Positions 40,106 to 59,729 of a DNA stretch of 64,000 nucleotides are shown here, in pieces; position 1 is the first letter of the stretch, and each line of letters opens with the position of its first letter. The translations under genes and the position numbers were made by a program. The stretch spans positions 45,858 to 109,857 of the forward strand of contig DFTH01000012.1 of assembly GCA_002379425.1 (NCBI GenBank), written 5' to 3'. The notes under the pieces are model-generated. The model had not been told where the DNA came from and ran no database searches. It worked only from the letters and a program-made list of their open reading frames with translations. Source of the stretch: Prevotella sp. UBA4217. Lineage in GTDB: Bacteria; Bacteroidota; Bacteroidia; Bacteroidales; Bacteroidaceae.

Positions 40106-40327
40106 CTACTTCCAGGGATTCTCGAAGGCCACGGGACCGTTCTCGAGTTTCTGGCACACGATCTCCATCTCCTCGAAGTGCTCCTGACCGTCTTCCCACA
40201 TCTCCTTGTAGTGGATGCAGTAGCAGCCTGTGCCCTTCAACTGCTTCATCGTGTTGCCATCCACCGTGTTGTAGAACGTGCAGGTGAAATCGCGCGGGTC
40301 GTTCGGAGCCAGCATCCACTGCAGCAT
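40106..40327 (-). pseudogene. Small ORF, probably a 5'-truncated gene remnant
   Basis: 73 residues from the only ATG, ending QKLENGPVAFENPWK. Codon use matches the G+C-rich house style (many third-position G/C), which suggests real coding sequence. The open frame continues upstream of the ATG with plausible residues (LYSNSQ) until it runs into the inverted repeat at 40366, with no start codon and no TAnnTTTG promoter. It therefore looks like the 3' part of a gene whose 5' end was replaced by repeat DNA; a short genuine gene is the alternative. A matching minus-strand terminator lies downstream at 39895-39927. The parent family was not recognised. Confidence 0.5.
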
Positions 40328-40365
40328 CTGGCTGTTACTATATAGTTGTCTTAAGCCAAAAACAA

Positions 40366-40434
40366 GTGTCCCACCTGTCCCATCTGTCCAAGAAGGATAG
40401 TTCCCACCAGGGACAGATGGGACAGGTGGGACAC
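40366..40434. repeat. Perfect 24-bp inverted repeat
   Basis: Arms at 40366-40389 (GTGTCCCACCTGTCCC...) and 40411-40434 are exact reverse complements, spaced by 21 nt. The arms contain two tandem tgtccca-like subunits, and a partial copy (gtgggacacat) recurs at 40692-40703, beyond the 21-nt array. The structure could form a very stable cruciform or RNA hairpin but has no T-run on either side. Confidence 0.85.
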
Positions 40435-40457
40435 ATAAAAAGTGGGTAAGACCACTC

Positions 40458-40489
40458 TATATATACGCGTGCGTATATGCGCACATATA
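40458..40489. other. 32-nt alternating purine-pyrimidine tract inside a palindrome
   Basis: Every base from 40458 to 40489 alternates pyrimidine and purine, with a CG/TG-rich core. It lies within an imperfect palindrome bounded by CTCTATAT (40455-40462) and ATATAGAG (40485-40492). Such tracts are prone to Z-DNA or cruciform formation. Confidence 0.75.
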
Positions 40490-40558
40490 GAGATTTCGTC
40501 AGGTGAACAGTCGGGTGCGACATAGAAAGAGTCTTTTCTGGAATAGGAAGGCTCTTTT

Positions 40559-40690
40559 CTGAATTCCCAAGGCCTGGGAACAAAATGAGAAGGCACTTTA
40601 CGGAACTGAGGAGGCTCCTCACGTTGCTAAAGAGGCTCCTCACGTTCGTAAAGAGCCTCCTCATTTTCGTAAAGAGGCTCTTTTCTGGAG
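40559..40690. repeat. 21-nt tandem repeat array, second copy of the intergenic element
   Basis: A hairpin ttcccaaggcctgggaa (about 40562-40578) precedes 4 imperfect 21-nt units such as aggctcctcacgttgctaaag up to about 40690. Reverse-complemented, the order (array, then ttttG-t/t-CCCA..TGGGA hairpin) equals that of the 4748-4852 copy. The minus strand is open across the array, giving a 7-residue repeat ORF (e.g. RSLFSNV), as in the first copy. Confidence 0.75.
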
Positions 40691-40738
40691 AGTGGGACAC
40701 ATATTATGGGCTTAATTGCGTTAATCTTCCAAAATCGC

Positions 40739-40777: not shown

Positions 40778-42373
40778 ATGGAGAAACTCCTGAATTTATA
40801 TAAGGAATGGAATGGCAGTGAGCCTGCCAATGTCCAGCAGATACCTGGCGGTGGCAGCAATCGCACCTACTACCGTCTGACGGATAAGGAAGGCCAGACG
40901 GTCATTGGCGTCATTGGTACGAGTCGTGACGAGGATCATGCCTTTATCTATCTGACAGAGCACTTCAACCGTCGTAGGTTACCAGTGCCGAAGATTCTTG
41001 CGGCCAGTGACGACGAACTGCGCTATCTGCAGACAGACCTTGGCAGTACCTCCCTCTTTGATGCCATCCGCGGAGGTCGCGAGGCCGGTGGGCGCTATAC
41101 GCTCAGGGAGCAGGGACTGCTGAGGCGTACGATCAGGGAACTGCCGAACATGCAGATTCGCGGTGCCCGTGATCTCGACTTCTCGAATTGCTATCCACAG
41201 GCTGAGTTCGATGTTGACAGTGTGCTCTTCGACTTGAACTATTTCAAGTACTGTTTCCTGAAAGCCACAGAACTCGACTTCCACGAACTGAAACTGGAGG
41301 CCGACTTCCGCCTCTTTGCCAAGGACCTTACCACCGACCTTGACAATCCTGTGCCTGAAGTGGAATGCTTCTTGTATCGTGACTTCCAGGCGCGCAATGT
41401 CATGCTCGACAGTGAGGGTAATCCCTGGTTTATTGATTATCAAGGTGGTCGTAAAGGACCATATTATTACGATGTCGCTTCCTTCTTGTGGCAGGCCAGT
41501 GCTAAGTATCCTTATAAACTTCGCCGTGAACTGGTCTATGAGTATTACAACTCGCTCAAGAACTATACTGAGGTGCCACCCGTGCGCCACTTCGTCAACC
41601 GCCTCTCCCTCTTCGTACTCTTCCGTACATTACAGGTGTTGGGAGCCTACGGCTTCCGGGGCTACTTTGAGCAGAAGAAGCACTTCATAGAGTCTATCCC
41701 GCCTGCCATCCAGAATCTGCGGGAACTGATTGCCAGTTCATGGCATGGTTCCGCGGAGAAGGCGGAAACATCAACTTTCCACTATCCTTACCTGATGGAT
41801 CTGCTCCGCAGGCTGACCGAATTGCCGCAGTTTGCGCAGATAGAGGCGACGGCCAGTCGTGCAGATGGATATAAGACGACCGACTTGAATCCCTACAAGG
41901 CGCATCCCCAGGACGGACCAGCCACATTTTCCAAGTACGATGCCCAGGGACCGCTGGTAGTACGAGTCTTCAGTTTCTCATACGCCAAGGGGATTCCTGA
42001 AGATGAGAGCGGCAACGGTGGTGGCTATGTGTTTGACTGTCGCAGCACTCATAACCCCGGGCGCTATGAACCCTATAAGAAACTGACGGGACTTGACGAG
42101 CCTGTCATCCGTTTCCTTGAGGACGATGGTGAAATCCTGACATTCCTGGATTCTGTCTATAAACTGGCTGATGCCCATGTGCGCCGTTATATCCAGCGTG
42201 GCTTTACCTCCCTGATGTTCTCCTTCGGCTGTACTGGTGGACAGCACCGTAGCGTCTATTCTGCCCAGCATCTCGCAGAGCATATCCACGAGAAGTTTGG
42301 CATTGAGGTGCGCATCTGCCACCGTGAACAAGGTATCATGCAGACGCTGGATGCCCGGAAGGGGAAGGTTTAG
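40778..42373 (+). CDS. AmgK-like sugar kinase fused to RapZ C-terminal domain
   Basis: 531 residues in two parts. Residues 1-340 form an aminoglycoside-phosphotransferase-fold kinase: catalytic loop CFLYRDFQARNVML (Asp and Asn in place, His replaced by Tyr) and metal loop WFIDYQGGRKGPYYYDVASF, close to AmgK, which phosphorylates the anomeric position of MurNAc/GlcNAc in peptidoglycan recycling. Residues ~395-531 match the C-terminal domain of RapZ: CRSTHNPGRYEPYKKLTGLD and FGCTGGQHRSVYSAQHLAEH. RapZ's N-terminal P-loop NTPase is absent. As RapZ-C senses glucosamine 6-phosphate, the fusion may be a feedback-controlled amino-sugar kinase. A MurU-like partner lies 12 kb away at 54792. Its stop overlaps the convergent PAP2 gene by 4 nt. 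Confidence 0.85.
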   Translation: MEKLLNLYKEWNGSEPANVQQIPGGGSNRTYYRLTDKEGQTVIGVIGTSRDEDHAFIYLTEHFNRRRLPVPKILAASDDELRYLQTDLGSTSLFDAIRGGREAGGRYTLREQGLLRRTIRELPNMQIRGARDLDFSNCYPQAEFDVDSVLFDLNYFKYCFLKATELDFHELKLEADFRLFAKDLTTDLDNPVPEVECFLYRDFQARNVMLDSEGNPWFIDYQGGRKGPYYYDVASFLWQASAKYPYKLRRELVYEYYNSLKNYTEVPPVRHFVNRLSLFVLFRTLQVLGAYGFRGYFEQKKHFIESIPPAIQNLRELIASSWHGSAEKAETSTFHYPYLMDLLRRLTELPQFAQIEATASRADGYKTTDLNPYKAHPQDGPATFSKYDAQGPLVVRVFSFSYAKGIPEDESGNGGGYVFDCRSTHNPGRYEPYKKLTGLDEPVIRFLEDDGEILTFLDSVYKLADAHVRRYIQRGFTSLMFSFGCTGGQHRSVYSAQHLAEHIHEKFGIEVRICHREQGIMQTLDARKGKV

Positions 42374-43914
42374 AAGTGCTTCCTGATAGATTTCTGTCCG
42401 TTTTGGATTATAATGCCGCGTGTGGTGTCCGTAGCAGGCGTGCCGTCGAGCCGATAGATACGAGCCGTGGGCGTAGTCGTTTCAGTGCGAGTGGCAGGTT
42501 CGATGCCTGTAGCCTTCTCTTTGTATTCTGCACAGGCCTTGGCTATGAGTTGTGATATTTCTGCATCGGCGTGTAGTCGGGCAACGAGAGCACTGGCAAG
42601 GAGTCGGGTGACCTCGATGTCGCTGGCCCAGTGGTAACCCACGATAAGGCGGTTGTAACCATATTCGTAGCCGCGTCGGAGAATCTCGTCCTGATGGTCA
42701 GGAGCCACCTCTGCCATGATTAGGGCAGTGGTCCATCCCAGATTGGTGTGCCCTGACGGGAAACTGCTCTTGCCACGCTCCTTCTCCTCATCACCTGGTA
42801 CGAAAGAGGGATCGCCCAGTTGGACGAACGGCCGCTTGCGGAAGCGGATGGGTTTCAGACGGTCGGCAGTGTCGCTGGAACGTACGAGTATCGAGTCGAT
42901 GAGTTCGCTGATGGCCGGTGTCGTCTCAGGACTGAGCGTCATCCCGACAGCCTCGCCAAACACTTTCCGCATCATGTCCTCACTATATTCGGCCTCGCTG
43001 GCGGCACGGTCGCCTCGCTCTGTGTCACGCTGTTCCTTTGCCTTCCAATAGCGCATCACATCAGCCAGATAGCGATAGTTCGTTGTATCGACAGGATTGT
43101 TGAGAAAGTCCTCACCATGGGGTAGGTCAGCCTCAGCAGAAGGATCATAGTCGGCAGACTTGCCCTTCAGGGCTGCATATTCGGCCCGAGCGGCAAGGAT
43201 ATCCTTATGGAACTCAGGGTTTGTATGGGCACGGGCAATGCTGGCAGCACCACACAGGTAGCCTGCATAGACATCGCTCTGCCAGTGGGCACCCGTGATG
43301 ACACGGTTCTCACCATATTCGAAGCCACGACGCCAGATTGTGTCTTGCAGGGCTGGCCACATCTCTCCGAAAGCCAGGGCCGTTGCCCATCCGCAGGCCG
43401 CATGATCAGAAGGGTAGGAGTCGCCGGAATGCGAAATGCCTTTGTCCCACAGTGCCCATGGCTCCTCGTTCATCATTCCAAAAGGACGGGTACGCACGAA
43501 GTCTTTGGCGGCTGCCGTGCTCTGTGCCCCCGTATTGTAGGCTTTGGACAGAAGGCGCGACAAGGCGGGAGTCTTCTCGTCGGAGATGGTGTCAAGTTCC
43601 AGTACTTGCGCCATGATTGAGCGCATACTGGAGGGCTGCCCGACCGATTCTCGGCTGGCCTTCTCACCACGCGGGGTACCTTTCTGGGTCCTGGCCCACT
43701 GCCATTGTATCAGGTCATCGACAAAGTCGATATTGACTGAGTCTGGTGGGGTGGGAATGAAATAGCCCGCATTGGGCTGGTCGGTCAGATACACATACAC
43801 CGTATCCTCAGCGGTCTGGGCCTGAGCCCTTATGCTACACATGGTCGTTAGAGTGATTGTTATCCATAGGCGGATAAGCGTACTCGTCTTGGTGTTGGAG
43901 ATTGTCCTAATCAT
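42370..43914 (-). CDS. Secreted acid phosphatase with two PAP2 domains
   Basis: 514 residues from the ATG at 43914, which gives a clear signal peptide (RLWITITLTTMCSIRAQAQ). Two tandem PAP2/class-A acid phosphatase domains follow. Domain 1 (about 90-260): RTRPFG, YPSDHAACGWATA (PSDH instead of PSGH) and NRVITGAHWQSDV. Domain 2 (about 330-455): FRKRPF, FPSGHTNLGWTTA, NRLIVGYHWASDI. The repeated sequence FEYGENRV / YEYGYNRL shows internal duplication. The C-terminal 30 residues (ARIYRLDGTPATDTTRGIII ... NGQK) resemble the short Prevotella-type surface-sorting tails and may mark secretion. It hydrolyses phosphate monoesters by family; substrate unknown. It has a -7 box at 43942-43949 and faces away from the hcp operon. 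Confidence 0.88.
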   Translation of the reverse strand: MIRTISNTKTSTLIRLWITITLTTMCSIRAQAQTAEDTVYVYLTDQPNAGYFIPTPPDSVNIDFVDDLIQWQWARTQKGTPRGEKASRESVGQPSSMRSIMAQVLELDTISDEKTPALSRLLSKAYNTGAQSTAAAKDFVRTRPFGMMNEEPWALWDKGISHSGDSYPSDHAACGWATALAFGEMWPALQDTIWRRGFEYGENRVITGAHWQSDVYAGYLCGAASIARAHTNPEFHKDILAARAEYAALKGKSADYDPSAEADLPHGEDFLNNPVDTTNYRYLADVMRYWKAKEQRDTERGDRAASEAEYSEDMMRKVFGEAVGMTLSPETTPAISELIDSILVRSSDTADRLKPIRFRKRPFVQLGDPSFVPGDEEKERGKSSFPSGHTNLGWTTALIMAEVAPDHQDEILRRGYEYGYNRLIVGYHWASDIEVTRLLASALVARLHADAEISQLIAKACAEYKEKATGIEPATRTETTTPTARIYRLDGTPATDTTRGIIIQNGQKSIRKHF

Positions 43915-43941
43915 ATTATTATTGTTACTTGTAATTTGCTG

Positions 43942-43949
43942 CAAAGATA
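43942..43949 (-). promoter_or_regulatory. -7 element of the PAP2 phosphatase gene
   Basis: Minus-strand TATCTTTG, 27 nt before the start codon at 43914. Confidence 0.6.
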
Positions 43950-43985
43950 GAATTTTTTTCTCAATAAAACAAATAAAAATGGAAA

Positions 43986-44031
43986 TTTTTGCGACATGAT
44001 TTGCAGACGTCCGTATCATTTGTCGCAAAAA
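43986..44031. promoter_or_regulatory. Inverted repeat between divergent promoters
   Basis: TTTTTGCGACA (43986-43996) and TGTCGCAAAAA (44021-44031) are exact reverse complements; the inner TGAT/ATCA (43997-44000 / 44015-44018) extends the match. TGTCGC recurs at 44040-44045. The site lies between the PAP2 promoter and the hcp promoter, where an operator for a dimeric regulator could act on both. Confidence 0.55.
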
Positions 44032-44075
44032 TTGTTTTCTGTCGCTACATGAGGCGATAATTACCGGCATAAATA

Positions 44076-44107
44076 TTTGCATAATGTCGGAAAATTAACT
44101 ATCTTTG
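44076..44107 (+). promoter_or_regulatory. Promoter of the hcp-vgrG-like operon
   Basis: TTTG (44076-44079), exactly 20 nt, TATCTTTG (44100-44107): a perfect consensus match 30 nt before the first ATG. Confidence 0.8.
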
Positions 44108-44137: not shown

Positions 44138-44551
44138 ATGGCATTAACAGCAGTTTTAGAATTTGGCGATAACAACATCAAGCGTTACTCAAAGCAGTAC
44201 TTGGTGTCTGACTTTCGCTTTGTATTCAACCGCGCTTACACGTCTTTCAGTCCTGAAGGTGGGGCTCGCTGCAAGCAGGTTGAGGTAACGGTCGTCGCTC
44301 CAGGAAGGAACGATTTGACTTTGTTTGAGTGGTTTTCTACTCAAGGTGAACAGAGTGGTCGGATATTGATTAGTCTGTCTAACGAAGACAAACTTTCTGA
44401 ATCTGACACACAGTCTCTCTTTTTCGAAGATGCCAAGTGCTTCTCTCTGAACGAGTCTTATGACGTTGAACAGACCCGTCGCAGATACCTGAAGTTGGCT
44501 ATCGGTGCTGAACAGATTAAAATTGACGATGTTTTTTTTAAACGTATCTAA
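44138..44551 (+). CDS. Hcp/TssD-like type VI tube protein
   Basis: 137 residues, the size of a Bacteroidetes TssD (Hcp). The pattern is that family's: an N-terminal strand MALTAVLEFGDN, a long loop, then LTLFEWFSTQGEQSGRILI, SLFFEDAKCFSLNESYD and a C-terminal RRYLKLAIGAEQIKID. These proteins form hexameric rings that stack into the secreted tube and carry effectors. The assignment rests on this pattern, not on a search. It is the first gene behind a perfect promoter, followed 3 nt later by a related gene. Base composition is lower in G+C than in the flanking genes. Confidence in Hcp-like is good; whether a working type VI system exists elsewhere in the genome is unknown. Confidence 0.7.
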   Translation: MALTAVLEFGDNNIKRYSKQYLVSDFRFVFNRAYTSFSPEGGARCKQVEVTVVAPGRNDLTLFEWFSTQGEQSGRILISLSNEDKLSESDTQSLFFEDAKCFSLNESYDVEQTRRRYLKLAIGAEQIKIDDVFFKRI

Positions 44552-44554
44552 GTA

Positions 44555-45040
44555 ATGGCAAAACTATATTCAAACGAACTGAAGGCTTTCGTGGTACCGG
44601 AGAATTTTCTTGATAACCCCAAGAATGTGTTGAAGGAACACTGTTTGTCTGTTCAGCATTTTGACTATGACTGTGTGCATAAGCGCAACGATTCCGACGA
44701 GGTTTATGGCGCCACCGAGCCAGTGATTCTGAGTTTCACCGTGCGTGTCAACTCACCAGTCCATTCACGTGTGTTCTACCGTAATCTGGTTAGCAATGCC
44801 CATTATAACTATTCTTTCCTTTTCAATGCGACATTTAATGCTTACCAGCGTCTGGGAGACTATGATGACGGGATGGTTGTAAATGGCTACGTTGTCAGTG
44901 TGGAAGAAAAATTCTCAACGGATCGGGATGAGGCAGGTCAGAGTGAGCAGATTCTCCTGGATGTGAAACTTCTGGTGCGGAGTGTGACCTATCTCGGCCG
45001 TGAAGAGCAGAATAATCTGAAAAGTGTGTTTATTCAATGA
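44555..45040 (+). CDS. Second Hcp/TssD-like tube or adaptor protein
   Basis: 161 residues, 3 nt after the first hcp-like gene. Its core (LSFTVRVNSPVHSRVFYRNL ... YNYSFLFNATFNAYQRLGDY ... NGYVVSVEEKF) has the beta-barrel rhythm of TssD, but it is about 24 residues longer, with an N-terminal extension (MAKLYSNELKAFVVPENFLD) not seen in the first copy. Tandem unequal Hcp-like genes just before vgrG suggest that the second could be a cap or adaptor joining tube and spike rather than the main tube subunit; that is inference. No catalytic residues. Low-G+C like its neighbours. Confidence 0.6.
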   Translation: MAKLYSNELKAFVVPENFLDNPKNVLKEHCLSVQHFDYDCVHKRNDSDEVYGATEPVILSFTVRVNSPVHSRVFYRNLVSNAHYNYSFLFNATFNAYQRLGDYDDGMVVNGYVVSVEEKFSTDRDEAGQSEQILLDVKLLVRSVTYLGREEQNNLKSVFIQ

Positions 45041-45063
45041 CGTCTAAAAAACTGAAATAGATT

Positions 45064-48000
45064 ATGGCATTAAAATTGGTTGTTAATAGTGTTGAGTCTT
45101 ATAAAGACACAAACGATTTATCTAAAGAAACGTGTAAGAATAATGTTACATTGACTACGTCGGATACGACTTCGTCGTTGATACTGTATAATGTTGCAAA
45201 ACATAAACAGACATATATACTGAGTCTGTTGAACCTGACTTTCCAAAAGAAGATGTACCAGCCGACAGAGATTGTCATAACGCTTCAGGTTAGTCCTAAT
45301 GAGACAAGTGATTCTAAGGATGCCTGGTGCGCTATTCCGAAGGAGAAAGTTACAGACTTGTTTCAAAACAAGAAAGTCGGACTGTATGACGTGGCTGCAA
45401 GTTATAAGATAGGGGATGATTTTTATGTGAAAGATGTTCTTCCGAGTTTTAAGTCTAACTCTATGCTTGTCGTGCTGAAGGTTTATAGTCTGGATAAATT
45501 ATTGACGCTGGAGCACGATTGCCGCTCGTTCGTGTCGAAGAAACTGGTGGCGGGTATCTTGGCATCGGAAATGACCAAATATAAGAAGCCTTATGACCCT
45601 GATACTTCAGTAGCCTTTAGTAAAGGCCAAATGAAAGTGTTGTCATATTTGAAGAAACTCTCCGTTCAGAAACCAAAGGAGAAGTGGGCCAATTCAAGCC
45701 AGGCGGAATACGATGTCAAGGACGTTGGCACAGAGCACATATTTCCCTATCTCGTGCAGTATAACGAGAGTTTCTACGATTTGCTTGCGCGAACAACAAA
45801 CCGTTGGGGCGAGTTCATGTATTATGAGGACGGAAAATTGAATATCGGTTATCCTGATGAGCCAACGGTAGTTATTACGCATACAGATTCCGTGGATGAT
45901 AAGTTTAAAAGTATTAACTACATTAATCTCGATGATCTCAAGTTGGCATCCAATTATGACCTTGAGGCAAACTATGACAAGAATATCCTGGACGCACCAT
46001 TGGAGAAAAGTCCTAATAAACTCTCAGGTTTGTTATATGCTCCTGGCAAAAAGATGGACAAAGTCATTATGAAGAAGTTTGCCGCTTTCTTTAAGAATGA
46101 TAAGAACATACCAACGTTTATCGGGAATCAGTTGTTTGACGATCTCTATGGACTGGCAACTAAGACTATCGCGGTGGATAACAGTAATAATCAGTTTGAT
46201 GAGCAGCATTTCTCGGATGAGAATAGAAAGAACTGGCCGGAGAAATATGGGCAGTATAAATTCAAATCGGGAAAAAAGGAAGGGTTTAATATCTTCTCAG
46301 AACTGAATTCTGATTATGATAGTAAGAAGTATGGCGAGATCCTCAATAATGAAAGATCTGCGGCAGTCGATGCTGTGTGTATCGATTTTGACACCACGTT
46401 CCCCTGCCTGAAGTTGGGACAGGTGATTCAGGTTTATGGAAAAGAATATATTGTTGTACAGATTGACTGCAAACCGCGTTACCAGTATAAGGTTAATAAG
46501 AACAATTGGGTCGAAGCAAATACAGATAATCCTGAACTGGTATATAGTATCATTGGGACAGTACGAGACACTGTTAATAAAAAGGTCCTGAAGAAAGTAA
46601 AGAATGAATCAGGTGTAATGGAGGATAAAGAAGTAGAGGAGAAACTTTTCTATCCAACAGTTATCGCTTCTGGTCATGTCAGATATGCCGACCCGCAGAT
46701 GGCTACGGTCATCGATGCCGGCGACCCTTTGGGCAAGGGGCGTGTGCGCGTGATGTTCTCTTGGCAAAGTATTCCCAAAACAGATGGTGAAATCGATTTT
46801 GACAAAGCAGTGGAACTGTCTTCTCCCTGGCTGCAGTTTACGGCAAATGCCGGTGGCGGTAGTGGCATTACGGGAATGCACTATCCTGAGGACAAAGTCT
46901 TTGTAGGGTTCCTTGATGGTAATGTGGAACGTCCCTATGTCCTTGGTGCATTATCAGGCGGAGCAGGTTCCGATATAGCCTGCGAGACCCCTGGCGGACA
47001 TAAGATGACCATTGGCGACGATGATGGAGGAATTTCCAACTTCGTGCTGGGAACCCTTGCACCTGGTCTTGGTACGCTTTCGGCTTTTCTCCCTGGTGTG
47101 GGCGACAAACTGGCCTTTGGGAAGAATTGGGAAAAGAACCTCAGTTTCGGCGGTGGCTTCGAGATTACCGACCAATATGGTATTTATAAGGTATCGGGCT
47201 CTACTGATGGACGAGAGGTCGGCATTGCTTCACCTTGGGGCAATGTGAACATCAGTGCTTTCACAGGCATCAGTATCTCAGCCCCCAATGGCGACATCTC
47301 CATCAGAGGTAAGAATGTTTCTATTGAGGCAGGCAACAACTTGTCGCTTGTGTCTGGTAAAAACGTCAGTTACAAGTTGTGGAAGGAAAAAGACTCCAAG
47401 AAAGGTTCACTAGCGCAGTTCTTCATCGACATCCCTCTTCAGGTGACTAAGAAATTGGCAGAAACATTGACGAACATAGTCGATCTGTCGATTGTCAGGT
47501 CAGTGGTCGAGGTCGTCATGAAGCCTGTGGAGGGTGCTCTGACGGTGAAGTCCAACAGGTTCCTGAAACTCGAAGCAGGCAAGAGCAAGTGCGCATATCC
47601 CGTCTCGGCTTACAAGAAATCGAAAGTGGAACTCCAGAAAGAACTTGATGAGGAGAGAAAGAAAGACATCCTTGCGGGCACAGGAAAAATACTCGGCGTG
47701 GGCAATGCCATGAAAGAGATTTTCAGTTCCATCGAGAGTGTGGTAGCAAACCTTGACACCCGATATCAGACGCACTACAATAAGTGTGTTGACTTGAAGG
47801 CGAAACTGAAGGACAGTCTTGCTGCGTTGGAACCATGGAGAAATAATTTGGACAAAGATGACAAGTCTGCTCTTAAAAGGAAGTTTGATGATCTCTGGAA
47901 GGATGATCTGATCGGCAAACTCTGGGTTGTACAAGATGAATATAAGGACTTGAAGGAAGATGACCTTCAGTTCTCTGACGAGATTAAAGTCGATGGTAAT

Positions 48001-48903
48001 CCCAAGGATATAGTTGACGTTACCTGTCGTAATGCTCATACCTTCGGGGCAAACTTCAGGCATCCCATAGTTAGTATCAAGAATATTAAAAAGGACAGTG
48101 TTGAAAATATTGATATTGCCATCGTAGAGGAGCGTAAGCGGCTCAGGGCGAAGGCCCTGAATGCCCTTAATGATCTGGGCAGGGAGATACACTATCTGCT
48201 TCACTTCGATGCGAAACGTATCTATACCAAGGATCTCTCTTCATTTTATCTGACACCGGCCCCGGAGGACTATAAGGATAAAATGACAACGGCATTAAGC
48301 AAGGCGAAGTGTCCGAATGTGTATTATTACAAGATGCCTAGTGCAGATTTGCAGAAACTGGAGAGTAAGGGCGATACAGGTAACTGGCTGATTGGGGATG
48401 ATGAACGCCTTTATGTCAAGCGTCTTGTGGCGATGAACCTGATTGAAGAATTTGGGTTCTATCATGAGGAACTTGCTGTTGCCGACGCCAAATACAAAGT
48501 TCAACCTGCAGTCATTGACGCTAATAAGGATCACAGTCTCGTGAATAACACCTGTTGGGGGAAATATGTCGATTCGATCAGCGGTGTACCACCTTTAGGG
48601 AAGGCTGAGTCGTCCATCAGTTCCATTGCCAAGGGGGCTCTTAGTGATGCTCTGGGTAATCTGACGTTCTGGGACAGCACCGTTGAAAAATTCACATGGG
48701 GACAAGGTAAGGCTGGTAAGATACTGTTCGCTGATGGCAGCAAGACCTATTACCTTACCCAAAAAGGCGGAGATGAAGCCGATGTCGCCGAAGCAAGTAA
48801 GGAGTACCTGAAGGCCGCAGATTGTGCGGGCAAGGAGCAGACAGAGATCACTAATTTCCTTACAGTAATCAAAAATGCATTAAAAGAAGTAAAGAATTCG
48901 TAA
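45064..48903 (+). CDS. Giant VgrG/TssI-like spike protein with long C-terminal extension
   Basis: 1279 residues. The N-terminal gp27-like part (1-530) includes FPYLVQYNESFYDLLARTTN and FMYYEDGKLNIGYPDE near 227-266, a VgrG hallmark. A gp5-type OB fold (about 537-640) reads DPLGKGRVRVMFSWQ, SPWLQFTANAGGGSGITGMH and NVERPYVLGALSGG. A triple-stranded beta-needle follows (about 695-775; GVY-type repeats such as GNVNISAFTGISISAPNGDI). Residues ~775-1279 are an extra region, mostly charged helix with heptad-like runs (KKSKVELQKELDEERKK), unlike known VgrG tails and possibly a cargo domain; no catalytic motif was recognised. It is 23 nt after the second hcp-like gene and 3 nt before the next gene. 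Confidence 0.75.
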   Translation: MALKLVVNSVESYKDTNDLSKETCKNNVTLTTSDTTSSLILYNVAKHKQTYILSLLNLTFQKKMYQPTEIVITLQVSPNETSDSKDAWCAIPKEKVTDLFQNKKVGLYDVAASYKIGDDFYVKDVLPSFKSNSMLVVLKVYSLDKLLTLEHDCRSFVSKKLVAGILASEMTKYKKPYDPDTSVAFSKGQMKVLSYLKKLSVQKPKEKWANSSQAEYDVKDVGTEHIFPYLVQYNESFYDLLARTTNRWGEFMYYEDGKLNIGYPDEPTVVITHTDSVDDKFKSINYINLDDLKLASNYDLEANYDKNILDAPLEKSPNKLSGLLYAPGKKMDKVIMKKFAAFFKNDKNIPTFIGNQLFDDLYGLATKTIAVDNSNNQFDEQHFSDENRKNWPEKYGQYKFKSGKKEGFNIFSELNSDYDSKKYGEILNNERSAAVDAVCIDFDTTFPCLKLGQVIQVYGKEYIVVQIDCKPRYQYKVNKNNWVEANTDNPELVYSIIGTVRDTVNKKVLKKVKNESGVMEDKEVEEKLFYPTVIASGHVRYADPQMATVIDAGDPLGKGRVRVMFSWQSIPKTDGEIDFDKAVELSSPWLQFTANAGGGSGITGMHYPEDKVFVGFLDGNVERPYVLGALSGGAGSDIACETPGGHKMTIGDDDGGISNFVLGTLAPGLGTLSAFLPGVGDKLAFGKNWEKNLSFGGGFEITDQYGIYKVSGSTDGREVGIASPWGNVNISAFTGISISAPNGDISIRGKNVSIEAGNNLSLVSGKNVSYKLWKEKDSKKGSLAQFFIDIPLQVTKKLAETLTNIVDLSIVRSVVEVVMKPVEGALTVKSNRFLKLEAGKSKCAYPVSAYKKSKVELQKELDEERKKDILAGTGKILGVGNAMKEIFSSIESVVANLDTRYQTHYNKCVDLKAKLKDSLAALEPWRNNLDKDDKSALKRKFDDLWKDDLIGKLWVVQDEYKDLKEDDLQFSDEIKVDGNPKDIVDVTCRNAHTFGANFRHPIVSIKNIKKDSVENIDIAIVEERKRLRAKALNALNDLGREIHYLLHFDAKRIYTKDLSSFYLTPAPEDYKDKMTTALSKAKCPNVYYYKMPSADLQKLESKGDTGNWLIGDDERLYVKRLVAMNLIEEFGFYHEELAVADAKYKVQPAVIDANKDHSLVNNTCWGKYVDSISGVPPLGKAESSISSIAKGALSDALGNLTFWDSTVEKFTWGQGKAGKILFADGSKTYYLTQKGGDEADVAEASKEYLKAADCAGKEQTEITNFLTVIKNALKEVKNS

Positions 48904-48906
48904 GTT

Positions 48907-50874
48907 ATGGCATATATATTTGATGATTGGAAGAAAGTTCTGGAGAACTTTCAGAAGAGTGTCGAGAAGGATCTTGATGAGATTCATCAGCAGAAGGCTG
49001 AACTTCTGCAGATCAAGGTTGACATCTTCAACAAACTCGAGAAGGGATTGTTCTTCCGTGATAATGACCGTATTGTTATCTCTGCGCCTGAAGTTATCAT
49101 AGGCAATGTGGATAAGGGCGGTATGCTGATCGGAGAATCAGGTCGGGTGGTAGTAAAGGGTCAGGAAGTGGCCATGGATGGTGTAGGTAATACAGGGCAT
49201 ATCATCAGTCGTGCCCCCAGCATACGCCAGATAGCCGTCAATCCTGGCATCGACGGTGTTGAGAATGTGGTTTGCGATACCTCCGAGGTTGTTTCTCAGG
49301 CCTGTGATATCGTGCTCCATAGCAGCGATGCCAAGGATGTGTTCTCTCAGAATCCTGTGCCAGCAGGTCATGGGGGCATCCGCATCCATGCCGATAGCAA
49401 CCTGAATTTGGAGTCTGCCGTTTCTGCCGATAACCGGAAAGCCCAGATCGAGGCTTCCGTAAAAAACATCTCAGAACAGATTGATACGCTGAAGAAACAG
49501 ATGGATGCCGAGAAGAAACAGGTAGATGACTGTTTCAAGAGAATGTCGAAGGCGCTCGACCAGGAGGAGAAACTGAATCAGAGCGAGAATTATCTCTCCC
49601 GAATCAATGTCTATGATATTACAGAGGCCCATGAGGAGATGGAGGATATTATGCCGATGCTCTATCAGTCAACACAGGCTTTTATCAGTGTCATGTCGAG
49701 GTTGGCCGAGATGAATCGTCAGAAGAAAGCCTTGGAGACGGAAAAAGGTGCCATCAAGACTGGCAATGACTTTAAGGAGAATACCACGGGTGCCTCGATG
49801 AATATCATATCAGAGACCATCAATGTTACGACCTCTGACGGTGACGGTAACCTGCATTCCAATATTGAGGCAGGCATCAATGTCAGGTCTCCGAGAATGG
49901 ATGTGTCGATGCTTGATGAGAAAGGCCAACTGGTGGAGAATGGCGGCTTAGCCGTTACCGCACAGAGTATCTCTCTTGCCTCCGTTGCCTTGGCTGGCGA
50001 AGGAAAGGAGATGTGCAGCACAGGTGTTGTCAATATTCAGGCCAAAGACATTAGTCTGCAGTCTGTCGATTACAAATTGGATGACAATAAGATGTTCTCG
50101 GAGAAAGAACTCACAAATGACGGCAAGATTATGATGACAGCCAAAACCGTCGAGGTTTCTACAGCCAATCCCACCAATGTTGAACGTGACGAGGAAGGCA
50201 AACTTTCCAAAGGTGAGTTTAAGAGCGAGGGCGATGTGATCTTCAGGTCGAAGACGTTTACCGTTGAGAGCCTTGATTACGAGGTGAAGGATGGCAAACT
50301 GGATACGAAGGCCTTGACAAAGGACGGAGTATTCTCGATCCGTGCTGAGAAGACAAATATCCTTGCTGCTGATGCCGAAGGTAAGGCAACAGGCTCTATC
50401 AACCTTAATGCGAAGGCCGTGGCTGTGAAGTCGATGAATGTCGATAAGGAGAAACTTACTGACGACAAACTCGCCGAAGGCAGCACAATGACCATCGTGT
50501 CGGAGAAGATGTTCGTCGGTGCCAAGTCGAATGACGTCAAGAGTAAGAAAGTGCAGGTGGTATCCGAAGAAATGGGCGCATTCGCAGACAAGACATTGGA
50601 GATACAGCAGGGCGATGGCAAGGCAGTGGTCCAACTTGATGGCGGCAATGCCTCCGTGGGCGGCAGCAAGACGCAGTTGTTTGGTGCCACGACGATCAAC
50701 GGCAAGACGGAGGTTAAGGACGAACTGAAGGCTCCCCAGGCCACGATCGACAACCTGGAGGCCAAGACATCGTTCAAGTCGCAGAATATCAGCGACGGAA
50801 TAGCCGTTCCCGGTGCCGCGGCAGGTGGAAGCCTGAGTGCTAAACTGAAGACGGAGGATGCTCCGAAAGATTAA
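48907..50874 (+). CDS. Beta-repeat and coiled-coil protein, spike companion
   Basis: 655 residues starting 3 nt after the vgrG-like stop. Residues 1-45 are helical; 50-170 alternate short strands and Gly turns (RIVISAPEVIIGNVDKGGML...); 177-295 are a coiled coil (EQIDTLKKQMDAEKKQVDDC); 300-620 form at least five ~50-residue repeats with the pattern G-hydrophobic-x-h-x-A-K-x-h-x-V followed by a variable lysine/aspartate loop (e.g. GKIMMTAKTVEVSTANPTN, GVFSIRAEKTNILAADAEG, GSINLNAKAVAVKSMNVDK). The repeats look like rungs of a beta-solenoid, as in trimeric phage spikes or DUF2345-like needle tips. The C-terminus GAAAGGSLSAKLKTEDAPKD is flexible. Not a family I can name; a structural partner of the spike is the best guess. 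Confidence 0.65.
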   Translation: MAYIFDDWKKVLENFQKSVEKDLDEIHQQKAELLQIKVDIFNKLEKGLFFRDNDRIVISAPEVIIGNVDKGGMLIGESGRVVVKGQEVAMDGVGNTGHIISRAPSIRQIAVNPGIDGVENVVCDTSEVVSQACDIVLHSSDAKDVFSQNPVPAGHGGIRIHADSNLNLESAVSADNRKAQIEASVKNISEQIDTLKKQMDAEKKQVDDCFKRMSKALDQEEKLNQSENYLSRINVYDITEAHEEMEDIMPMLYQSTQAFISVMSRLAEMNRQKKALETEKGAIKTGNDFKENTTGASMNIISETINVTTSDGDGNLHSNIEAGINVRSPRMDVSMLDEKGQLVENGGLAVTAQSISLASVALAGEGKEMCSTGVVNIQAKDISLQSVDYKLDDNKMFSEKELTNDGKIMMTAKTVEVSTANPTNVERDEEGKLSKGEFKSEGDVIFRSKTFTVESLDYEVKDGKLDTKALTKDGVFSIRAEKTNILAADAEGKATGSINLNAKAVAVKSMNVDKEKLTDDKLAEGSTMTIVSEKMFVGAKSNDVKSKKVQVVSEEMGAFADKTLEIQQGDGKAVVQLDGGNASVGGSKTQLFGATTINGKTEVKDELKAPQATIDNLEAKTSFKSQNISDGIAVPGAAAGGSLSAKLKTEDAPKD

Positions 50875-50905
50875 AGAATCGAAGAATTAAAGAATTAAAT
50901 AAGTT

Positions 50906-51637
50906 ATGAGAAGAGCAGTTGTGAAAGAGTTTGAGCAGTTGGGCGAGAAACTGTCTAATTACAATGCCATTTTCGCCTATCGCCTGATGAACCTCTGTGT
51001 CAAGGCAGAAGAGGTCTCCTTATTGCCAGTAGAAGCCTTTATAGAAGGCGAACTCCAGAAGTTGGAGGATTGTACCACTATCTCCAAAAAAGATGAATAC
51101 AGTTTTATGATATTCCCCATCTACGATGAGGATCTGCCGGCAATTGGTCAGGCATTGTTAAGGGTACATCCCGAGTTCAAGCAGAAGATAGAGTCTATGA
51201 CGGTCAAAGGCGTAGATATTAATGGACATCTGGAAGATGCCGATGTCCGCTATATCTTAGTCACGATGCCAGAGGTGGACGACAATCGCTATGACGCGCT
51301 GAAGGATGGAGTGAAACTCTGTTATGAAGAGTGTAAGGCACAGATGGATGCCGAGAATCTCAAGGCCGATGCTAAATTTGCCACTTTGACGGTGGGTGAG
51401 AGTGAAGATGATATGAAAAAACTGAAGGATGGTCGTGAACAACTCAACGACCAGTGGTTTGGACAGCGTGATAATCTTTACAATAGTAAACTCCAAGAGA
51501 TAGAGGAGGCACATAACAAGTGGCTGTCGGAGGAGGCTGAGAAGAACCAGAAACTTCAGGATGAAGATGCTGCGCGCGGTAATGGAGTCGGCTCACAGAT
51601 GCGTATGATACCAGAGGATGGAGAGTTTGTCAATTAA
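50906..51637 (+). CDS. Helical acidic protein of the spike operon, unknown
   Basis: 243 residues, 31 nt downstream of the beta-repeat gene behind a short repeat-type spacer. It is soluble, Glu/Asp/Lys-rich and largely alpha-helical; the C-terminal third (QEIEEAHNKWLSEEAEKNQK) is a strong coiled coil. The first half includes YSFMIFPIYDEDLPAIGQALL and IESMTVKGVDINGH. No signal peptide and no membrane segment. The shape (small, acidic, operon partner of a large secreted spike) resembles an adaptor or chaperone such as those that load effectors onto VgrG, but sequence similarity to a known adaptor was not recognised. Could equally be an immunity protein for the spike's extra domain. Confidence 0.6.
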   Translation: MRRAVVKEFEQLGEKLSNYNAIFAYRLMNLCVKAEEVSLLPVEAFIEGELQKLEDCTTISKKDEYSFMIFPIYDEDLPAIGQALLRVHPEFKQKIESMTVKGVDINGHLEDADVRYILVTMPEVDDNRYDALKDGVKLCYEECKAQMDAENLKADAKFATLTVGESEDDMKKLKDGREQLNDQWFGQRDNLYNSKLQEIEEAHNKWLSEEAEKNQKLQDEDAARGNGVGSQMRMIPEDGEFVN

Positions 51638-53091: not shown

Positions 53092-54624
53092 TCAGATAAT
53101 CTTCATGGCCAGCATGGTAATATCATCTTCCTGCTGGGCCGAACCTCGATAACTCTCCAAGGTGTCCTGCATCTTGGAGAGTATTTTTTCAGGACTTTCA
53201 CCCATACGGGCAGCACTATCCAGACGAGCCATCATGCGCTTGATGCCGAAGATCTCATGATAACTATTCTCAGTCTCGTACAGTCCATCATTGTATAAGA
53301 ATAAGGTAAAGTCGTCGATCATCGTGATTTTCTGTTCTTCGTATTTATAGTCATCAACGACTCCTACTGGCACATTGGGGACAGTGTCGAGCAATTTGGC
53401 ACCCGTTGAGGGGTTGAGCACCACAGGGGCAGGATTGCCGGCACAGCAGTAACCAAAGCGTGCGCTGTCGAGGTTGAGCACTCCGATGAACATCGTGACG
53501 AACATCTCATTGTGATTGATGGAGCATAATGCATGGTTCATGGCGTTCATGATGGCTGCAGGCGAAGGATCCTGTCCTGGTGGACAACTGCCACAGTGGA
53601 TAGAGGCCGCCGTTCGGAAGGCACTCCGCGTGATCGACATCGTCAGCGAAGCCTTTACATTGCTTCCTGGTACGTCGCCGATGCAAAACACGATGCACTG
53701 TCCAGAGTAGATATAGTCGTAGAAGTCGGCACCTACGTCTGGCGCGGAGAGCACCTTTACCTGTAGGTCGAGATGGTGGCGCGCGTTCTCGCCGGAAGAG
53801 ACGTTGGGCAGCATGGCTTCCTGTATGTCGCTCGCAATCTTGAGTTCCCTGCCCATGATCTCCTGCGACATAATCAGTTTGTTCACACGGCGGAACTCAC
53901 GTGAGTAGCGCCACACGATATAGATGATGAGGAATATGCCCAGCAACTGGAAGATAAGTACCCATAGGTGCATACGGTGCATGTCCTCGTAGGCCTCGTA
54001 GGTTGCGATGTCATCATTGACGAGTTCCTTGAAATAGACATCGGCTGTCAGCACGCCCACCACCTTGCCTTTCTTGTTATGGATAGGCAGGCCGTATGTG
54101 TAAATCAGGAGATTGGCACCGCCAGTATCATAATAGGGCTCGCTCCAGTAGGCTGAGTCCGACTTGAATGGATGCGTGAACCATTCCTGCTGGGTATAGT
54201 CGTAAGGTAATACCTTGGTCCGGGGCTCGTCAGCACGCTCGTCCTGAAAGGCGTAGGGCGCAAACAACTTCTCCTTTTGTGGATAGAAATGGGGAGCCAT
54301 AGACACTGAACTACCGATAATCTCAGAGTTGCGCATGACCAACCTGGTAGCAATGCCATAGAGTTTATCCGGATCGCTGAGGTTCATCTCTACGTCACCC
54401 ATCGCATTTTGGACAGCCGTCTCAACAGAAGTCTTCAGGTTGACCACACGCTGGATCTCATTCAGGTCATCATAGGCCTGAGCAATGCTCTGTTCCCTGA
54501 TGGTATTGCGGGTATAGAAGTACTGCGCCACGTTGATAATTTCTATGAGGGCGGCAGCCACAATGATCAGCGCAACACTGGTCTTGGCTTTATTGATGAT
54601 TTTCTTTCTGTTTGTCAGTTCCAT
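53092..54624 (-). CDS. Membrane Cache-domain PP2C/SpoIIE-type phosphatase
   Basis: 510 residues from the ATG at 54624. Architecture: membrane segment (~10-33), periplasmic sensor of the Cache type (40-240, with QQEWFTHPFKSDSAYWSEPY near residue 150), a second membrane segment (~242-262), a short linker, then a SpoIIE/PP2C serine phosphatase domain. The metal-binding Asps are in APDVGADFYDY and IVFCIGDVPGSN, and QQEDDITMLAMKII is the last motif. It should dephosphorylate Ser/Thr on partner or anti-anti-sigma proteins in answer to an extracellular ligand. No kinase is adjacent. Whether it regulates the spike operon (type VI systems can be switched by phosphatases) is only a possibility. Confidence 0.87.
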   Translation of the reverse strand: MELTNRKKIINKAKTSVALIIVAAALIEIINVAQYFYTRNTIREQSIAQAYDDLNEIQRVVNLKTSVETAVQNAMGDVEMNLSDPDKLYGIATRLVMRNSEIIGSSVSMAPHFYPQKEKLFAPYAFQDERADEPRTKVLPYDYTQQEWFTHPFKSDSAYWSEPYYDTGGANLLIYTYGLPIHNKKGKVVGVLTADVYFKELVNDDIATYEAYEDMHRMHLWVLIFQLLGIFLIIYIVWRYSREFRRVNKLIMSQEIMGRELKIASDIQEAMLPNVSSGENARHHLDLQVKVLSAPDVGADFYDYIYSGQCIVFCIGDVPGSNVKASLTMSITRSAFRTAASIHCGSCPPGQDPSPAAIMNAMNHALCSINHNEMFVTMFIGVLNLDSARFGYCCAGNPAPVVLNPSTGAKLLDTVPNVPVGVVDDYKYEEQKITMIDDFTLFLYNDGLYETENSYHEIFGIKRMMARLDSAARMGESPEKILSKMQDTLESYRGSAQQEDDITMLAMKII

Positions 54625-54641
54625 ATTGTTCTTTGCCGCGG

Positions 54642-54673
54642 CAAAGATAATCATAATTTGCGAAACGAGCAAG
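54642..54673 (-). promoter_or_regulatory. Promoter of the PP2C gene
   Basis: Minus strand -7 TATCTTTG (54642-54649) with -33 CTTG (54670-54673) at 20 nt. Confidence 0.65.
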
Positions 54674-54791: not shown

Positions 54792-55562
54792 ATGAAACAG
54801 GCGATGATCTTTGCCGCAGGGCTCGGAACGAGGCTGAAGCCCTTGACCGATACGATGCCCAAGGCACTCGTGAGGGTAGGGGGGCAGCCGTTGCTCTGGC
54901 ATGTTATCCAAAGACTGAAGGAGGCTGGCTTCGGGCGCGTTGTCATCAATGTGCACCACTTCGCCCAGCAGATTATAGACTACCTCCAGGCGAACCAGAA
55001 CTTCGGACTTGATATCCGCATCAGCGATGAGACCAGCGGCTTGCTCGAGACAGGTGGCGGCATCAGGAAGGCACTGCCGCTTTTTGATCCCGAGTTGCCC
55101 GTGCTCATCCATAACGTCGATATCCTGAGCAATGCCGATCTGGCAGGGATATACGCAATGGCTGAGCGTGGCCATGCCGATGCCCTGCTGCTCGTGAGTC
55201 CCCGCCATACGAAGCGCTACCTGCTCTTTGAAGAGGAAGAGTCCACGGCTGGTGCGTCTGGCATATTGCTTCTTCAGGGCTGGACCAACATCGAGACGGG
55301 AGAGGTGCGCAGTCCCTATCCCGGTCTTGATCCCCGTCATGCACAGCAACTCGCCTTCAGTGGCATCCATGTGCTCTCGCCATCGGCATTCTCCATCCTT
55401 AAAGACATGCCCGAACGTTTCGGCATCATCGATTTCTACCTCCGCTACTGTCATAAGTACGCCTTTCTGGGCAAGAATCAGAGAGACCTGCAATTGCTTG
55501 ATGTCGGTAAACTCGACTCTCTCGACATGGCTGAGGCCTTCTTGTCAATTCCAAATAGATAA
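54792..55562 (+). CDS. murU: MurU-like nucleotidyltransferase
   Basis: 256 residues of the NTP-transferase family: [20 protein letters not shown] is the nucleotide-binding signature with the catalytic Arg, [13 protein letters not shown] follows, [20 protein letters not shown] is the sugar-binding region, and IHNVDIL carries the metal-binding Asp. It is close to MurU, which makes UDP-MurNAc from MurNAc 1-phosphate in cell-wall recycling, the step after AmgK. The AmgK-like partner is at 40778, split off by the phosphatase and spike genes. Glucose or mannose 1-phosphate remain possible substrates. guaA follows after 2 nt. Confidence 0.78.
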
Positions 55563-55564: not shown

Positions 55565-57145
55565 ATGCAACAGAAGATAATTATATTAGACTTTGGTTCA
55601 CAGACCACGCAACTCATTGGTCGCCGTGTGCGTGAACTCGACACTTTCTGCGAGATTTTGCCCTATAATAAGTTTCCGAAGGACGACGAGAGCGTGATCG
55701 GTGTCATCTTGAGCGGATCTCCGTTCAGTGTCCACGACCCAGAGGCCTTCAAGGTCGATTTGTCGCCATTCATAGGCAGGATTCCCGTATTGGGCATCTG
55801 CTATGGGGCACAGTTTATCTCCCATACCCTCGGCGGGAAGGTGGAGAAGGCTGACTCAAGGGAGTACGGCCGTGCCAACCTCGAGACGGTGGATAACTCC
55901 AACCCGCTCTTCAAGGGCTTCGAGCAGCACTCGCAGGTGTGGATGTCGCATGGTGACACGATCACTGCCATTCCCGATGGTTTTCAGGTGATTGCCTCCA
56001 CGAAAGACGTGAAGTATGCCGCCTACTGGTGTCCCCCCGGCTCTCAACTGTCAACTCTCAACTGTCAACTCTCAACTGGTATCTGGGCCGTACAGTTCCA
56101 CCCGGAAGTGTTCCATAGCCTGCAGGGTACGCAACTGCTGAAGAATTTTGTCGTTGATATATGTGGCTCCCGCCAGTCGTGGAGCGCAGCCTCGTTTGTC
56201 GATTCCACGGTGGCAGAACTGAAGGCGCAACTTGGACAGGACCGTGTCATCCTCGGTCTCTCCGGCGGTGTCGATTCCTCCGTGGCTGCCGTGCTCCTGA
56301 ACCGGGCCATCGGCAACCGTCTGACCTGTATCTTCGTGGATCATGGCATGCTTCGCAAGAACGAGTTCCAGCAGGTGATGGACGATTACAAGGTGCTGGG
56401 GCTCAACGTGATTGGCGTGGATGCCAGTGAGACGTTCTTTAGCGACCTCGCCGGGGTCACGGAACCGGAGCAGAAACGCAAGATCATCGGGCGTGACTTC
56501 GTGGAGGTGTTCAATGCCGAGGCTAAGAAGATCACCGATGCGAAATGGCTGGCCCAGGGCACGATCTATCCCGACCGTATCGAGTCGCTTAACATCACGG
56601 GCAAGGTCATCAAGAGCCATCATAATGTGGGCGGACTGCCCAAGGAGATGAACCTCCGACTCTGTGAGCCGCTGAAGTGGCTCTTCAAGGACGAGGTGCG
56701 CCGCGTAGGCCGTCAACTCGGCATGCCCGAGCACCTCATCACCCGCCATCCCTTCCCGGGGCCTGGACTGGCTGTGCGCATCCTCGGTGACATCACGCCT
56801 GAGAAGGTACGCATCCTTCAGGATGCCGACGATATCTACATCCGTGGGCTGCGCGAGTGGGTCGATACCGATGGCGAGACTCTCTACAATAAAGTGTGGC
56901 AGGCAGGCGTCATCCTCCTTTCCACGGTGAGAAGCGTCGGCGTGATGGGCGATGAGCGTACATACGAGCATCCTGTGGCCCTGCGTGCCGTCACCTCCAC
57001 CGATGCCATGACTGCCGACTGGGCTCATCTGCCCTACGAGTTCATGGCGAAGGTGTCCAACGAGATCATCAACAAGGTGAGAGGTGTGAACCGTGTCTGC
57101 TATGACATTTCCTCCAAGCCGCCCGCAACCATCGAGTGGGAGTGA
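55565..57145 (+). CDS. guaA: GMP synthase (glutamine-hydrolysing), with in-frame insertion
   Basis: 526 residues. The N-terminal class I amidotransferase has the Cys nucleophile in GICYGAQ (about residue 80) and the His/Glu pair in AVQFHPEV. The ATP-pyrophosphatase domain has the P-loop [11 protein letters not shown] and the C-terminal dimer domain ends [12 protein letters not shown], as in all GuaA proteins. It converts XMP to GMP with ATP and glutamine. Just before AVQFHPE lies [13 protein letters not shown], encoded by tandem repeat DNA (56041-56078) rather than by a conserved segment. 2 nt after murU; transcribed with it. Confidence 0.96.
56041..56078. repeat. Tandem ctcaactgtcaa repeat inside guaA
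   Basis: Three to four short units of tcaactctcaactg / tcaactgtcaact in a row. The same repeat motif occurs, in the opposite orientation, within thiL near 33701-33737. In frame in both genes. Confidence 0.8.
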
Positions 57146-58912: not shown

Positions 58913-58965
58913 TAGTCCGTTTTTAACGTCTTTTACGCTTTGTGTACTAATTGCGTATTACTTCA

Positions 58966-59129
58966 CTTGGCTGCAAATGAATAAAATAATATCTTTGCAA
59001 AAGATTATTCATTTGTAACTATCGGTAAGGATGTGATAACTAAGAAATTATATATAAGCGAAAAGAACTAAAAAGTGATTAATATTTACTAATTAGTTTT
59101 ACTATGGTTAAATAGTTTATTTATATTTG
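58966..59129 (+). promoter_or_regulatory. Two promoters before the small lipoprotein gene
   Basis: P1: CTTG (58966-58969), 20 nt, TATCTTTG (58990-58997). P2: TATATTTG (59122-59129) with a poor -33. P1 gives a leader of about 150 nt, long enough for regulation; P2 gives about 20 nt. Confidence 0.55.
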
Positions 59130-59154
59130 TAGAACATTTTAAAACAAAACGGAC

Positions 59155-59541: not shown

Positions 59542-59565
59542 TTTTTTTCCTGCACCTCAAGGCAC

Positions 59566-59701: not shown

Positions 59702-59729
59702 AGCAATATTGTTTAACCCTCTAAATTTA

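Follow-up and report, generated by a model that had tools for sequence, protein, structure and literature searches.

The DNA analysed here, hereafter the window, is a 64-kb stretch of Prevotella sp. UBA4217 (C11:45858-109857 of a 1.9-Mb assembly that is 58% complete). It contains five tightly packed genes, designated P1 to P5, which encode two Hcp-type tube proteins, a long VgrG spike, a coiled-coil/beta protein and a protein with the fold of the ribosome recycling factor (RRF); a lipoprotein gene (P6) follows. We consider it highly probable that this module is a cassette for the tube tip and spike of a divergent type VI secretion system (T6SS) of the Bacteroidota, detached from the machine genes, which lie on the same contig.

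P1 was identified as TssD, since it matched PF17642 with 44.5 bits (cut-off 25.8), and the comparison of its family with Hcp1 gave 95.7% in hhalign. P2 matched no Pfam family and did not reach the curated PF17642 score. When its AlphaFold model (52 sequences, pLDDT 82.7, pTM 0.76) was searched against the PDB, Hcp structures ranked first (4hkh, Foldseek E 5e-7), with Hcp5 of B. fragilis (7yw0) at rank 50. P3 contains the VgrG/phage OB domain PF04717 (29.6 bits versus a cut-off of 23.8) and stayed below the curated scores for whole VgrG proteins (19.2 of 186.35 bits for TIGR03361 and 32.9 of 121.8 bits for TIGR01646). It would appear to work like a VgrG, albeit a diverged one.

The gaps between P1 and P5 are 3, 23, 3 and 31 nt, with another 24 nt before P6. 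The TTTG-N20-TATCTTTG element ahead of the first gene fits what we take to be the Bacteroidetes promoter consensus; it is not a conserved feature of such cassettes, as it was found within 220 nt of the first gene in 8 of 82 other VgrG occurrences. The module has a G+C content of 0.455; the 10 kb to its left and right have 0.523 and 0.490, respectively. A preliminary description of the window, made from its sequence, had pointed out the gene packing at these positions, the promoter, the two Hcp/TssD-like proteins, the spike of 1279 residues and the low G+C content, all of which were borne out.

The secretion machine and the cassettes of relatives

The machine is located at C11:130456-149258, on the same strand, around 33 kb downstream of the module and 20 kb beyond the end of the window. 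The gene order is ClpV, TssB, an AraC-type regulator, TssC, Hcp1, Hcp2, an exported protein with a PEGA domain and a ThiF-type E1, followed by TssG, TssK, TssE, TssF, a ubiquitin-like protein (Ubl) of 105 aa, an E2, u389, u303 and an 800-aa vWA/RING/FHA protein; u389 and u303 are exported or membrane proteins, named by their first ORF lengths. The AAA and ClpB_D2-small domains were matched in ClpV, and TssE matched gp25 (PF04965) with 35.4 bits. TssC scored 339 bits with PF17541, the complete matches of relatives 332-358 bits, and a second, canonical TssC of genome G211 751 bits. TssB, which stood outside the Pfam scan, was identified by its position as the conserved ORF between ClpV and TssC. 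The Pfam match of TssK itself was below the cut-off; hhalign to the T6SS locus of genome G572 yielded 99.1% for TssF and 97.2% each for TssG and TssK, where the gene names of the G572 locus are presumed from size and order. Sheath and ClpV, the baseplate proteins TssE/F/G/K, and an Hcp tube with a VgrG spike are thus all represented, and TssB, TssC, TssK and ClpV, for which the preliminary description had proposed to search, are all present here. Among the exported and membrane proteins of the locus there was no Pfam match to TssN, TssO, TssP, TssQ or TssR, with remote homology being possible; when aligned with 17 ORFs from the loci of G572 and G099 by hhalign, these proteins reached at most 3%.

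The relation between module and machine becomes clear from related genomes, which were scanned with one genome per species (best 80 of 160 stretches) and provided 78 loci in 48 genomes, among them loci of the cultivable Bacteroides mediterraneensis An793 and Xylanibacter ruminicola D31d. The core order in these relatives is ClpV-TssB-(AraC)-TssC-Hcp1-Hcp2, then the cassette P1-P2-VgrG-P4-P5, and then PEGA-E1-TssG-TssK-TssE-TssF-Ubl-E2-u389-u303-vWA/RING/FHA. Such in-operon cassettes were found in Prevotella, Bacteroides, Parabacteroides, Alistipes and Millionella; one subgroup has P5 and PEGA encoded on the other strand. Around a quarter of the VgrG occurrences (23 of 82) were in the core locus and the other 59 were non-core or on contigs too short to tell. 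Sequence was available on both sides of 64 of them ('with room'; 45 non-core and 19 core). Within this set Hcp3 (P1) preceded VgrG in 41 cases and P2 in 40, P4 followed in 63 and P5 came after VgrG in 63. The distribution of the system is patchy: 6 of 60 close relatives matched the VgrG at E <=0.001, three of them strongly; TssD was present in 22 of 150 genus members. At least two VgrG loci occurred in 16 of the 48 genomes, and RUG383 had six.

In the machine of the genome studied, the slot after Hcp2, which holds the module in relatives, is empty, and PF04717 matched nothing in the assembly other than the VgrG of the window. Three other genomes (G198, G186 and G182) share the split of cassette and machine. 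The split locus explains why the module was taken for an orphan; by its gene order it belongs to a T6SS. Orphan status, as claimed in the preliminary description, could not be upheld: a machine is found some 33 kb away and the five genes lie within the T6SS of relatives, an arrangement that the description itself had named as speaking against its claim. Its statement that the 64 kb holds no machine genes was correct in that TssD, TssC and VgrG-OB searches of the assembly found no further T6SS gene there, apart from a truncated hcp piece that had been missed. This lack of any sheath or baseplate gene is what could suggest a separate, T6SS-independent delivery system, an option that the description had also raised. 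It has hardly any chance of being right; the same genes are part of one T6SS operon in relatives, so that it is largely refuted by gene order and not needed.

Alternatively, the cassette could be a remnant, stranded at a hot spot and without further use to the machine; truncated hcp pieces are scattered over the genome, and one lies 4 kb away from the cassette. This is very improbable considering that all five ORFs are intact, that no VgrG other than that of the window was found while the machine's own slot is vacant, and that the same split recurs in the three genomes mentioned.

Coordinates of the cassette genes and neighbouring features in the window (Table 1) define the site of the detached cassette. 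The amgK-rapZ gene was directly upstream of 14 of the 45 non-core cassettes with room, and murU was downstream in 13 of these 14, as in the window. The two genes are at most 1 kb apart in 19 of 29 other murU loci, which leaves no space for a cassette; another of the 29 (G020) has the phosphatase of the cassette between amgK-rapZ and murU, and the remaining 9 have no amgK-rapZ within the 1.5 kb examined. The pair is a recurrent cassette site. The order cassette-phosphatase-murU-guaA-ClpV was observed in six genomes (L082, L086, L090, G186, G182 and G198), in which guaA and ClpV are 0.2-2.1 kb apart, versus 27 kb, in the same order, in the genome of the window.

Table 1. Positions of the cassette genes and of neighbouring features in the window
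Feature	Position	Strand	Basis
P1, Hcp3/TssD tube protein, 137 aa	44138..44551	+	PF17642 and profile comparison to Hcp1
P2, second Hcp-fold protein, 161 aa	44555..45040	+	AlphaFold model versus PDB
P3, long VgrG spike, 1279 aa	45064..48903	+	PF04717
P4, coiled-coil/beta protein, 655 aa, candidate spike extension	48907..50874	+	position after VgrG
P5, RRF-fold protein, 243 aa, candidate adaptor	50906..51637	+	profile, PF01765
P6, lipoprotein, 471 aa	51662..53077	+	lipobox in sequence, weak LruC-domain similarity
Promoter TTTG-N20-TATCTTTG	44076..44107	+	pattern; ~30 nt 5' of gene 1
PDC-sensor SpoIIE-type PP2C phosphatase	53092..54672	-	PF07228 139.7 bits, PF22673 87.9 bits
amgK-rapZ fusion gene, left border of insertion site	40778..42373	+	PF01636, PF22740
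PAP2 gene, between amgK-rapZ and module	42370-44082	-	
murU-like nucleotidyltransferase gene, right border of insertion site	54792..55562	+	
guaA, next after murU	55565-57145		

The phosphatase has the same place and strand in L077, L082, L086, L090, L093, L099 and L100. Of the 45 non-core cassettes with room, 28 have genes for SpoIIE-type phosphatases or STAS proteins at most 3.5 kb from P5; none of the 19 core cassettes does (Fisher p 1e-6, for loci that are not independent and in a comparison that includes no genome-wide background). The neighbouring phosphatase might control the deployment of this particular spike, and such local control could run via a partner switch or via an FHA-like domain.

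Several further features were observed around these loci. Hcp3 is missing before VgrG in 22 of the 45 non-core cassettes with room (L074, L078, L080, L084 and others), 16 of which have SpoIIE or STAS genes after P5; the Hcp3-less non-core cassettes appear to form a second cassette class. The truncated hcp piece of the window (around 40109-40375, minus strand, with 40338-40700) adjoins a repeat-rich stretch, an observation with which loci L055, L056, L058 and L059 were grouped. The genome contains three Hcp1-Hcp2 pairs (C11:135.7 kb, C15:52.8 kb and C1:127.5 kb) with 92-95% DNA identity across around 900 bp, as well as three truncated hcp copies. Stretches of the same repeat adjoin five of these six hcp places, which suggests that hcp genes spread or recombine together with this repeat. 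An imperfect inverted repeat, TTTTTGCGACA..TGTCGCAAAAA (43985-44035), separates the PAP2 gene from the promoter of the module and is a candidate operator or terminator. Beyond guaA, a low-G+C stretch (57164-60680) carries ORFs that were labelled by eye as a tetratricopeptide-like lipoprotein (57164-58912) and an Rpn/PD-(D/E)XK-like protein (59709-60680).

Candidate spike extension, RRF-fold protein and the question of cargo

P4 matched no known family and gave weak PDB matches, to a designed protein (E 0.0056) and a trimeric adhesin stalk (E 0.012). It could form a trimeric coiled-coil/beta needle that extends the spike, and P1 and P2 may assemble into special Hcp rings, placed where the Hcp1/Hcp2 tube meets the VgrG trimer. 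Proteins with DUF4280 (PF14107), which we take to be PAAR-like, were seen near the cassette in two genomes (L079:18575-18964 and L131:17762-18187), and no ORF of this type was noticed beside the module of the window.

The product of the fifth gene had been described as a helical protein; the gene is indeed present, and its RRF fold had been overlooked. The profile of the P5 family (43 rows) matched RRF structures across both RRF domains (best E 1.4e-13, 1eh1), and 41 of the 43 members matched PF01765 individually, the P5 of the window being just under the cut-off (29.2 versus 29.7 bits). NCBIfam frr was matched by only 12 of the 43. In RRF domain I, the arginines of the RNxRR motif contact rRNA. 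The first of these is Asp or Glu in 36 of the 43 P5 sequences and Arg in none, and the second position is Arg in 4 of 43. Given that the rRNA-binding arginines that mark a functional Frr are lost despite the shared fold, a role of P5 in ribosome recycling is unlikely, and we regard it as an RRF lookalike. It also differs from Frr by its place behind VgrG, which is the same in core and non-core cassettes. P5 may rather be an adaptor that acts in assembly or loading. A literature search for the ribosome recycling factor in combination with both type VI secretion and VgrG gave no match.

The VgrG protein consists of hub, OB and beta-helix parts up to around residue 850, followed by around 425 mostly helical residues. 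In the 80-row alignment, the identity to the VgrG of the window is 0.22-0.64 for residues 51-850 and 0.13-0.25 past residue 850. The model of the C-terminal part (435 residues, pLDDT 81) gave no PDB match. P6 came after P5 in 10 of the 78 related loci. A lipoprotein does follow the module, as had been noted, but its earlier label of LruC is weak (15.2 bits for TIGR04456, below the cut-off of 36).

These data bear on the possibility that the module is a toxin cassette, in which the C-terminal part of VgrG is a fused effector, P5 or P6 is the immunity protein and multiple copies diversify the arsenal. The fast evolution of the C-terminal part, the genomes with several VgrG loci and the fact that P6 accompanies only some cassettes are in line with it. 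Nevertheless, we consider it rather unlikely: homology of the C-terminal part extends over 71 of the 80 rows, core copies included, which sets it apart from swapped polymorphic toxins; neither a toxin family nor a fold was matched; and P5 occurs in core and non-core settings alike. With the module as part of a T6SS spike, the helical C-terminus of VgrG and lipoprotein P6 might still be cargo-related or serve in self-protection.

The ubiquitin-like gene set of the machine

The machine contains genes for an E1, an E2, a Ubl and a RING-like protein. The Ubl ends in DP(F/I)PG in all 20 distinct complete sequences (23 matches), and the E2 motif PWHPNI...AG.VC[ILV]N, with the catalytic cysteine and the upstream HPN that are expected of an E2, is present in all 20 distinct complete sequences (22 matches). 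The E1 motif GCGALGNE is kept in 27 of 28 rows, the last of which ends before the motif, and eight candidate ligands of the RING-like part are kept in 16 of 16 rows. The E2 scored under the curated UQ_con value of Pfam (22.5 versus 27 bits), and all seven PDB matches of its profile were UBE2K-type E2s (E 0.006-0.02). The Ubl profile had 11 PDB matches up to E 1, the best four being designed ubiquitin variants (from E 0.018), two others SUMO-like and the rest unrelated; a beta-grasp fold was weakly suggested by these matches and by those to Rad60-SLD and YukD, both below the cut-off. The RING label is based on sub-threshold Pfam matches (Prok-RING_1 and zf-RING_2), and the vWA and FHA labels of the 800-aa membrane protein are our assumption from its sequence. 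The E1 matched the 'E1-E2' models of PADLOC (best E 4.5e-17), no PADLOC model matched E2 or Ubl, and a Pfam scan of 15 of the 17 machine proteins (TssB and Hcp1 left out) gave no match to a JAB protease.

The 48 VgrG-containing genomes included 43 with TssC, 43 with E2 and 41 with both, and in 28 of the 41 TssC and E2 were on one contig within 17.5 kb. Two added genomes (G020 and G025) have E2 as well, but repeat contigs of G189 and G184. G016, G026, G099 and G156, four genus members whose Hcp scored in the canonical range (142-152 bits), all lack E2. Among 395 genomes of the phylum, TssC was found in 25 and E2 in 3, with the genome studied counted in both; none of the other 24 TssC genomes had E2, and G285 and G379 had a distant E2 without TssC. 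Among 295 genomes of the order TssC was found in 15 and E2 in 5. Here TssC and E2 shared a contig, besides that of the genome studied, in G637 (TssC 568 bits), G766 (352) and G830 (316); G051 had E2 alone and G572 (436 bits) TssC without E2. E2 thus mostly tracks the low-scoring TssC group, with G637 as an exception.

A further-reaching interpretation is that the T6SS uses its own E1-E2-Ubl(-RING) cascade to attach Ubl to one of its components or to cargo of the spike. Interchangeable spike cassettes would supply it, each equipped with an RRF-fold adaptor; those away from the core locus would often have a SpoIIE-type phosphatase switch of their own. We give this combined interpretation an even chance. 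The set would most likely attach Ubl to a machine component or cargo, and the membrane RING protein might provide a phospho-dependent switch with its FHA-like domain. The genes might instead be structural or hitchhiking, with Ubl as a docking part comparable to the ubiquitin-like domain of TssN in the canonical T6SSiii. Docking has been proposed for TssN of B. fragilis (PMC10781749), and the missing JAB protease match would fit. However, structural parts would need neither the free C-terminal PG of Ubl, the HPNI and cysteine of E2, the E1 motif nor the RING-like ligands, all conserved as described, and we regard this alternative as doubtful.

Several observations weigh against the proposed T6SS and its tagging set. 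At an assembly completeness of 58%, a further VgrG could have escaped detection. In the module itself neither a cargo nor a toxin domain could be recognised, so that delivery of an effector is only presumed. Non-core cassettes often outnumber the core ones in Prevotella, so that either position could be the ancestral one. Both E2 and Ubl match their PDB relatives weakly (best E 0.006 and 0.018, respectively). TssC was lacking in 5 of the 48 genomes and E2 in 5 (G179, G196 and G207 have neither), perhaps owing to incompleteness, and G031 has VgrG and no E2. Finally, L212, L213 and L217 have E1-Ubl-E2-vWA/RING/FHA sets without ClpV or TssC on the stretch read; the tie to the T6SS is therefore not absolute. 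These three loci possibly represent a second injection system that shares the tagging set. The set of L212 adjoins an ORF that looks PAAR-like by eye and a 1766-aa ORF.

Comparison with known systems

Clusters of hcp and vgrG away from the core locus are known as orphan or auxiliary clusters of T6SSs. The cassette of the window likewise lies off the core locus and differs by its RRF-fold gene, the amgK/murU site, the SpoIIE phosphatase and the fact that no second VgrG was found. The preliminary description had also considered a module of a T6SSiii encoded elsewhere. A T6SS is indeed encoded elsewhere, but it is not an ordinary T6SSiii. With the T6SSiii of the Bacteroidota (B. fragilis type; GA1-GA3) the machine shares ClpV, TssB/C (TssC of the PF17541 family), multiple Hcp, TssE/F/G/K and VgrG. 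It differs in the scores of its TssC group (332-358 versus 751 bits in G211), in having no recognised TssNOPQR and in its extra E1, E2, Ubl and RING-FHA genes; moreover, its VgrG has 1279 aa versus around 620 in G016, and there are the P4 and P5 genes.

Ubiquitin-like conjugation in bacteria is known from the Cap2 E1-E2 of CBASS and from the Bil/Bub operons. The machine shares with these a ThiF-type E1, an E2 and a Ubl. Its set differs in lying inside a secretion locus, with E1 and E2 separate, no JAB protease seen, and RING joined to vWA-like, membrane and FHA-like parts. An article on prokaryotic RING fingers by Burroughs, Iyer and Aravind from 2011 may mention these neighbourhoods. Among the matches listed from the open-licence literature, no title connects a T6SS or secretion locus with ubiquitin-like, ThiF, RING or E2, and the titles listed for prokaryotic ubiquitin-like systems likewise include none on such a locus. 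The accessible parts of PMC4714493, PMC10781749, PMC1779556, PMC3482391 and PMC11354881 contain no description of an E1-E2-Ubl set in a T6SS. Prokaryotic relatives of ubiquitin are covered in PMC1779556, and PMC10781749 presents TssNOPQR as the membrane complex; TssN, which interacts with TssK, is proposed there to dock the baseplate through a ubiquitin-like cytoplasmic domain. Three architectures of T6SS in gut Bacteroidales are distinguished in PMC4714493, where the first screen demanded VgrG and ClpV within fifteen genes.

Systems such as the present one can escape screens that expect VgrG no more than a few genes from ClpV, or have their cassettes labelled as orphans. If P5 acts as proposed, the RRF fold would gain a role outside translation. 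If Ubl conjugation does take place, protein tagging would belong to the working of a secretion nanomachine in Bacteroidales, the relatives of which come from rumen and gut samples, and this would join two fields that showed no overlap among the literature matches listed.

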